A DNA stretch of 64,000 nucleotides, from assembly GCF_017641085.1 (NCBI RefSeq), contig NZ_JAEPPI010000002.1:682001-746000 (forward strand), given 5' to 3'. The notes below the pieces were generated by a model. That model saw nothing but the letters and a program-made list of their open reading frames with translations. It was not told the DNA's origin and did not search any database. Below, in pieces: positions 14,249 through 16,117 of the stretch (position 1 is the stretch's first letter; every line of letters begins with the position of its first letter). The position numbers were made by a program, and so were the translations under genes. The DNA is from Gracilimonas sp. (GTDB lineage Bacteria; Bacteroidota; Rhodothermia; Balneolales; Balneolaceae).

Positions 14249-16117
14249 CTAATACTCAAGTTCGGCCCCGAAAATCTCAACGATATCACGGATAATGGGA
14301 TCTTTTTGTTGTATTTGTTTGAAGCGTTCATACACGCTCATCGGTTTTTCGCGTTCCTGCTGCTCACCAACCGACACATTAAAACGCAGCAATGCGCCCA
14401 CACATTCCTTTAACTTCTTCTGGAGTTCGGATTTCTGCTCATCCAGCATTTTTTGGGCAAACTGATTATCACACTCCAAAAACAGCTCAGATCCTTTCAG
14501 CTTTACTACTTTTACCCGTTCCATTTGCAGGTGCAGCAACATGGGGAAATCGCCTTTCAGAGAGTCCAGATATTCCGGCCAGGAGTTTTGGATGTATTCA
14601 AGCGTGAGTTTCTCGGGTGCCTTTTTAGGCTCTTTTGGAGAAGGCTTTGAGGGCGACTCAGCAGCTCCGTTTGGGGTAGATGCTTTCTTTGAAGCCGCCG
14701 CCGTTTTTCTGGAAAGACTGGTCATAAGTGCCGGGGTGCCAATATCAAAATCGTCGTCTTCCTCTACCGGTTCCGGATCAGGTTCTTCATAATCAACTTC
14801 CCCGGCCTCAAACTCTTCTTCTAATTCCTCCTGTGCATCTTCCTCTTGAACAGCCTCGCTTTTGGGTTCTTCGGTCTCCGGTTTCTGAGGCTCATTTTGT
14901 TCAACCTGATGCCCGTTGGAAGAAGATTCCGGATTTTGTGCAGACTCAGGCTCAGTTTCTTTTTGGGTTGAACCGTTTTGAGAAGAGCTTACGAAGTTAC
15001 CGGAGTTTTTTTTTAACTCCTCCAAACCGGCCAATAACTCGGATAGCTGCTCAGATCGCTTCATGTGAATCAGCTTCAACAAGGTAATTTCAAACTGAAT
15101 ACGTGGCTGACTCGCATCTTTTAACTTAATCTGAGCTTCGCTGATAATGTGCAGCATCCGCATTAAATCATCCCGGGAAAAATCCTTGGCCGTTTGCTGA
15201 TACCGTTTCTTCGTTTCCTCAGAAGCCTCAACCAAATAAAGCTGTGCTGACTCTTGGGCGATGTATAAATTTCGCAGGTGTTCAGTCAGCCCAATCAGGT
15301 ATTCCTGAATGTCGTATCCTTCCTGCAGTAAGGTGTTGATAAGTTCCAGTCCTTTGTCGGCATCATGCTCTTTCACACAATCCATAAACTGAAACAGGCG
15401 GTCGGTACCCACCACATTCAGTGCCTGCAGCAGTTCATCGTGGGTGATGGTATCCCCGCAAAAAGCGATGGCCTGATCCATTAGTCCAAGAGCATCACGA
15501 AGCGCTCCATCGGCTTTTTTGGCGATTACATGTAGGGATTCTTCATCAATGGAAATATCCTCATCCAGGGAAATCTTACGCAAGCGCTGTACGATTTCAT
15601 CTACGGAAATTCGCTTAAAATCAAATCGCTGAACACGAGAAAGGATGGTAGGCAGCACCTTGTGAGGTTCGGTAGTCGCAAAGATAAAGATAGCGTGTTC
15701 TGGCGGTTCTTCCAGCGTTTTCAGCAGCGCATTAAAAGCTGCTTTACTGAGCATATGAACCTCATCCACAATAAAAACTTTGTAGCGGCCATTTTGAGGA
15801 GGAATACGAACGCTTTCCCGAAGGTGATGAACGTCATCAACCTTGTTGTTGGAAGCGGCATCCATCTCCACGATGTTGAGCGTCTGGTTCAGCGACTCGC
15901 CATCAACACTGGTGTCAATTTCGTTAATCGTTCGGGCAAGCACACGCGCCATGGTGGTTTTCCCAACACCTCGGGGACCGCAAAACATATAGGCATGAGA
16001 CAGCCTGTTTTGCTTAATGGCATTCTTTATGGTATTGCTCACATGCTCTTGCGAGACAATATCCTCAAAGGTATGCGGTCGATATTTTCGGGTAAGTGCG
16101 CGGTACGTTTCTGACAT
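14249..16117 (-). CDS. dnaX: DNA polymerase III subunit gamma/tau
   Basis: A 622-residue clamp-loader ATPase (tau form). Walker A is GPRGVGKT at 47-54, Walker B is VDEVHM near 117-122, and the sensor/SRC region reads LLKTLEEPPEHAIFIFATTEPHKVLPTILSRVQRF. The collar domain follows to about residue 365. An acidic, Ser/Pro/Glu-rich linker fills about 375-500, then a C-terminal domain (residues 510-622) ends in FGAELEY. Two features are unusual. The Cys4 zinc module normally found between Walker A and DAAS is absent: only 14 residues separate ARTIN from LNIVEMDAASN, with no Cys. And codons 368-371 contain an A9 run that could give a 373-residue gamma product (see the regulatory entry). Confidence 0.97.
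   Translation of the reverse strand: MSETYRALTRKYRPHTFEDIVSQEHVSNTIKNAIKQNRLSHAYMFCGPRGVGKTTMARVLARTINEIDTSVDGESLNQTLNIVEMDAASNNKVDDVHHLRESVRIPPQNGRYKVFIVDEVHMLSKAAFNALLKTLEEPPEHAIFIFATTEPHKVLPTILSRVQRFDFKRISVDEIVQRLRKISLDEDISIDEESLHVIAKKADGALRDALGLMDQAIAFCGDTITHDELLQALNVVGTDRLFQFMDCVKEHDADKGLELINTLLQEGYDIQEYLIGLTEHLRNLYIAQESAQLYLVEASEETKKRYQQTAKDFSRDDLMRMLHIISEAQIKLKDASQPRIQFEITLLKLIHMKRSEQLSELLAGLEELKKNSGNFVSSSQNGSTQKETEPESAQNPESSSNGHQVEQNEPQKPETEEPKSEAVQEEDAQEELEEEFEAGEVDYEEPDPEPVEEDDDFDIGTPALMTSLSRKTAAASKKASTPNGAAESPSKPSPKEPKKAPEKLTLEYIQNSWPEYLDSLKGDFPMLLHLQMERVKVVKLKGSELFLECDNQFAQKMLDEQKSELQKKLKECVGALLRFNVSVGEQQEREKPMSVYERFKQIQQKDPIIRDIVEIFGAELEY
15006..15023 (-). promoter_or_regulatory. 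Putative slippage/frameshift site in dnaX (A9 after GGAGGAG)
   Basis: On the coding strand, GGAGGAG (15023-15017), TT and nine A residues (15014-15006) are followed by CTCCGG. The frame reads GAG GAG TTA AAA AAA AAC TCC. Adding one A, or a -1 ribosomal shift, gives AAA CTC CGG TAA, a stop after residue 373. Losing one A, or a +1 shift, gives ACT CCG GTA ACT TCG TAA, a stop after residue 375. The short product would contain the ATPase and collar domains but no tau tail. Thermus dnaX uses an A9 run for transcriptional slippage and E. coli uses A6G with an upstream SD; this site has parts of both. Function is inferred. Confidence 0.65.

Follow-up and report, generated by a model that had tools for sequence, protein, structure and literature searches.

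The window, by which we mean the whole 64-kb stretch of Gracilimonas sp. DNA that was analysed, carries on its minus strand dnaX, the gene for the tau and gamma subunits of the clamp loader. The gene forms a single open reading frame (ORF) of 622 codons, its product matches the Pfam families DNA_pol3_delta2, DNAX_ATPase_lid and DNA_pol3_gamma3, and it is followed by ybaB-like and recR-like ORFs, a gene order identical to that of E. coli. Orthologues were found in 87 of 92 genomes of the family Balneolaceae. Codons 366–377 of the coding strand read GAG GAG TTA AAA AAA AAC TCC GGT AAC TTC GTA AGC and include a run of nine A residues (A9), seen as T9 on the plus strand at 15006–15014. G. amylolytica (L121) has an identical site. 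The locus comprises the following features:

14249–16117, minus strand: dnaX, the clamp-loader tau/gamma gene, 622 codons, with tau as the product of the 0 frame (ORF and Pfam domains).
15041–15421, minus strand: collar domain III (PF12169, residues 233–359, from Pfam), the final domain that would remain in gamma.
15017–15023, minus strand: GGAGGAG, Shine-Dalgarno (SD)-like, probably only Glu-Glu codons (not conserved).
15006–15014, minus strand: the putative A9 slippery run, made up of the wobble A of TTA-368, AAA-369, AAA-370 and the AA of AAC-371 (from sequence; codon-invariant in 75 Balneolaceae genes).
15002–15020, minus strand: candidate 6-bp hairpin GGAGTT/AACTCC spanning the run, not a conserved part (pairing compared across genera).
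14997–14999, minus strand: -1-frame stop TAA, reached after the gain of one A, closing a 373-aa product, 6 nt past the run (from sequence).
14989–14991, minus strand: +1-frame stop TAA, reached after the loss of one A or the gain of two, closing a 375/376-aa product, 14 nt past the run (from sequence).
14249–14988, minus strand: acidic linker and tau C-terminal region, found in the 0-frame product only (conserved YERFKQIQQKDPI...FGAELEY end), which we take to be tau domains IV/V.

No 0-frame stop follows the run directly, and tau needs no frame change. Simulated dnaX transcripts with ten, eight and eleven A residues yield products of 373 aa ending in KKKLR, 375 aa ending in KKTPVTS and 376 aa ending in KKKTPVTS, respectively. 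The first-pass annotation had described an A9 slip site with nearby stops in both shifted frames, which we confirm to the base. It had further stated that the short products end exactly where the collar ends; they do end shortly after this domain, but the Pfam collar stops at residue 359, nine residues ahead of the run.

The run is the only stretch of at least nine A or T in the window, and the whole 3.49-Mb genome holds 25 such stretches, about seven of which lie in the A sense inside a long ORF. Since a coding A9 is thus uncommon but not unique in the genome, its presence in dnaX is by itself weak evidence, and on comparative grounds it is conservation, not rarity, that excludes a chance origin.

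We read dnaX in 86 Balneolaceae genes, 78 of which, from 18 of 20 genera, carry A9 or A10 in place, with a length of 9 in 67 genes and 10 in 11. The codon alignment comprised 75 genes; the lineages g19, g8 and g20, which either lack the run or have an inverted layout, were left out. Among its 95 columns with a conserved twofold-degenerate residue, only two are codon-invariant, and they are precisely the Lys columns within the run. The first-pass annotation had proposed a search for AAG interruptions in the run of related genes, and the site survived it: AAA AAA stands at the run in 75 of 75 genes, whereas the remaining conserved Lys columns have AAA in 38–88%. The constraint extends to both sides of the Lys pair. 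The preceding codon is TTA in 54 genes, GTA in 15, CTA in 5 and ATA in 1, i.e., Leu, Val or Ile with a final A in every one of the 75 genes, compared with conserved Leu columns, where a final A has a mean share of 15% (maximum 48%). The codon following AAA AAA is AAC in 47 genes, AAG in 19 and AAA in 9; where an Asn ends the run (AAC-371 at window positions 15005–15007 and the homologous sites), it is written AAC in 47 of 47 cases and never AAT, against 59% AAT in the pooled dnaX usage. Relatedness does not account for this invariance, because the control columns share both genes and phylogeny with the site. Collectively, these codon patterns show that strong selection acts on the DNA sequence of the dnaX run.

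The same comparison bears on an alternative in which a conserved Leu-Lys-Lys-Asn peptide, together with codon bias, gave rise to the run incidentally and no second product is made. An xKK[NK] peptide is indeed conserved over most of the family, and a few other genes of the genome also contain an A9. Nevertheless, the simple form of this explanation is refuted by the codon invariance relative to same-gene, same-phylogeny controls, and other Lys-Lys pairs in these dnaX genes are written AAA AAA in 136 of 329 instances and lie inside an A9 only once. Moreover, when three other coding A9s of the genome were followed as controls, two were not kept in the orthologues of the genus, and one persisted in just the two species closest to the window genome. 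Together with the stops in both shifted frames, this makes a pure by-product very improbable.

Outside the aligned set, the run is missing at this place in genus g19 and in one g8 genome. The g19 relatives (L079-L082, L088, L100 and L111) are without A9 and have instead TTA AAA AAG or TTA AAA AAA (A6–A8) roughly a dozen residues nearer the N-terminus, mostly with a -1 stop within 6 nt; possibly, the run has been replaced there by a ribosomal heptamer such as A_AAA_AAG. The run is also mostly missing in other families of the order and in GC-rich members of the class. The phylum-wide dnaX sample was picked partly for short ORFs, and its proportions are not frequencies.

The stops behind the run are likewise maintained. 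A stop is retained at the +1-frame place in all 10 species of the window genus, and both stops stand at +6 and +14 in these ten species, even where the surrounding codons have changed (L003, L005). In 64 of 76 genes a stop closes each shifted frame no more than 25 nt behind the run, as against 0–39%, depending on the genus, at linker positions of the same genes, and +1 stops, not just -1 stops, are raised behind the run relative to those positions. Synonymous recoding with the amino acids fixed pointed to weak additional selection for the -1 stop (Fisher P 0.04) but to no selection for the +1 stop (P 0.5). Set beside the clear contrast with linker positions, this weak or negative recoding result suggests that the first residues of the linker have been partly chosen along with the stops.

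The reading frame of the tau tail, in turn, differs among relatives. It is the 0 frame in all run-bearing genes of the family except in lineage g20 (L114, L115), where the layout is inverted: the site reads GCA AAA AAA AAA GAT TAA, and it is the -1 frame that encodes the tau tail. The same inverted layout, with an early 0-frame stop and the tail in -1, was observed in L254-L264, L266 and L267. A flavobacterial genus from the same phylum has near-identical sites, and tau is mostly in the 0 frame there, but in two species it is in -1 and in one in +1; the run is always kept, the other two frames are closed, and the shifted tails share 52–63% identity with the homologous 0-frame tail. The +1 case (L314, G185), unlike its congeners, has A10 followed directly by TAG with the tau tail in +1, and as a single genome it could reflect an assembly error. 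Such frame differences between species might be taken to mean that the tract is phase-variable, with slippage during replication turning tau on and off in the DNA itself. Against this stand the narrow length distribution given above, the constancy of the tau frame in the family outside g20 and the expectation that tau is essential, and two of the three flavobacterial frame changes look like insertions or deletions outside the run. The chance that the tract is phase-variable appears negligible.

We consider it likely that programmed transcriptional slippage of the Thermus type at the dnaX A9 makes both gamma and tau. According to this proposal, RNA polymerase would slip on the run and produce mRNAs with 8, 9, 10, 11 or more A residues. 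Transcripts with nine or twelve A residues would be read through to give tau (622 aa, 70.8 kDa, or one extra Lys), and the others would run into a stop located 6 or 14 nt beyond the A residues and yield a gamma-like subunit of 373–376 aa, about 43 kDa, which would retain the ATPase and collar domains and lack the tau-only C-terminal region. A single gene would thereby supply both clamp-loader forms. That slippage takes place in this organism, at what rate, and that both proteins are used, we infer from gene sequences.

A possible but improbable alternative is -1 ribosomal frameshifting of the E. coli type on A_AAA_AAA or A_AAA_AAC, acting alone or along with slippage and giving a gamma ending in KKKLR. 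Both heptamers are in frame, a -1 stop stands at +6, GGAGGAG lies upstream in the window species, and the codon after AAA AAA is AAC, AAG or AAA but never AAT. The invariably AAC-encoded Asn is a feature that slippage does not obviously explain and that a ribosomal A_AAA_AAC heptamer might; in E. coli, though, A_AAA_AAC is less shift-prone than A_AAA_AAG (PMC5009743). Slippage is favoured over a ribosomal shift because the length of the A9 is kept, including the wobble A present in 75 of 75 genes, which A_AAA_AAC/G does not need, and because +1 stops are over-represented, as only a process making both shifts would require. It is also favoured because the tau frame drifts through all three phases in the flavobacterial genus, and the +1-frame tau of one relative is impossible by a -1 shift. 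Among the predicted short products, KKKLR could arise by either mechanism, but the TPVTS ends of the A8 and A11 forms are out of reach for a -1 ribosomal shift and would tell the two apart.

The first-pass annotation had counted the SD-like sequence as part of the site; it is present in the window but not conserved, and its anti-SD duplex energies show no advantage over synonymous recoding (p 0.33 for g1). Nor was an enrichment of SD sequences found before the genes of the window (4 of 40, vs 11% at random places). Ribosomes of Bacteroidia have been reported to ignore SD sequences, in a paper whose coverage does not extend to Balneolaceae (PMC9976891). The flanking hairpin proposed at the same time fares no better: its arms are present, and full GGAGTT/AACTCC pairing is confined to g12, g14 and 8 of the 10 congeneric species, with 1–5 pairs elsewhere. 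Downstream structure at the run has a mean z of -0.20 over genera, in a test without power, since the E. coli dnaX positive control itself gives z -0.4. The earlier suggestion that gamma and tau come from one gene, possibly through a mix of mechanisms, holds for the slip site, which conservation supports, and as to the mix, the evidence leans towards transcriptional slippage.

Among the known systems, the closest is that of Thermus thermophilus. Its dnaX is described as having an A9 with stops in both non-zero frames and as producing gamma via transcriptional slippage, with gamma and tau near 1:1 (Larsen et al. 2000, as described in PMC1088944 and PMC5009743). The Gracilimonas gene shares with it the single ORF for tau, the sense-strand A9, the close stops in both frames and, by prediction, gamma as the shorter product. 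Unlike in Thermus, which belongs to an unrelated phylum, the run lies here directly after the collar, at codon 368 of 622, and slippage is predicted. Two-ORF dnaX genes with poly-A were described by Antonov et al. 2013 (17 genes from 12 genera, nine with A10), in a cluster with -1 frameshifts only, and the same authors took shifts in both directions serving one function as their mark of slippage (PMC3711429). Gene and kind of run are the same, and the two-ORF layout is shared by g20 and many flavobacterial genomes; in the window, by contrast, tau is the 0-frame product, and one relative in our set needs +1. E. coli dnaX likewise has a gamma ending just past the shift site, as predicted here, but it relies on a -1 programmed ribosomal frameshift at A_AAA_AAG with an SD sequence and a stem-loop, whereas the Balneolaceae genes have no conserved SD, mostly A_AAA_AAC, a run that exceeds the heptamer and stops in both frames.

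Outside the window, the genome has a 1407-codon gene in which a DnaQ-like exonuclease (residues 3–182) is fused to DNA polymerase III alpha, with PHP from residue 256; fusions of DnaQ to some DnaE1 are already known. One of the other coding A9s of the genome lies in the exonuclease–polymerase linker of this fused dnaE (G000:C3:818108-818116; L300, L332-L341, L350-L389). In all 10 species of the genus the linker contains an A9 or A10, behind which the -1 frame closes at +19 to +25 and the +1 frame at +30 to +36. Elsewhere in the family, A9/A10 runs occur at different linker positions in several genera and are absent from others. Given the amino acids, the probability of such a run is 0.03–0.5 per gene, and the case for slippage in dnaE is moderate for that reason. 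A literature search found no report of slippage in a fused DnaQ-DnaE. Only tentatively, and with some doubt, would we suggest that the replisome of this clade may use A-run slippage twice, in dnaX for gamma beside tau and in dnaE to provide a separate epsilon-like proofreading exonuclease in addition to the epsilon-alpha fusion.

In the literature searched, from which subscription papers were mostly absent, we found no paper on Gracilimonas dnaX, and only Antonov 2013 brings together dnaX, slippage and Bacteroidetes. The phenomenon is of a known kind (Larsen 2000; Antonov 2013), and the dnaX gene of the window appears to be a well-supported new member. The proposal extends programmed dnaX slippage to Balneolaceae, for which no earlier report was found in that literature, nor was a description of its wider distribution and of the frame drift among relatives. 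It also provides a codon-level comparative test for truncating slippage, a class called difficult to judge by comparison (PMC1088944). Among close relatives tau occupies any of the three frames while the run persists, which suggests that slippage, by supplying every frame, leaves the frame in the genome almost free to drift. If the proposal is true, there would be selection for two clamp-loader forms in bacteria in which gamma has apparently not been looked for.
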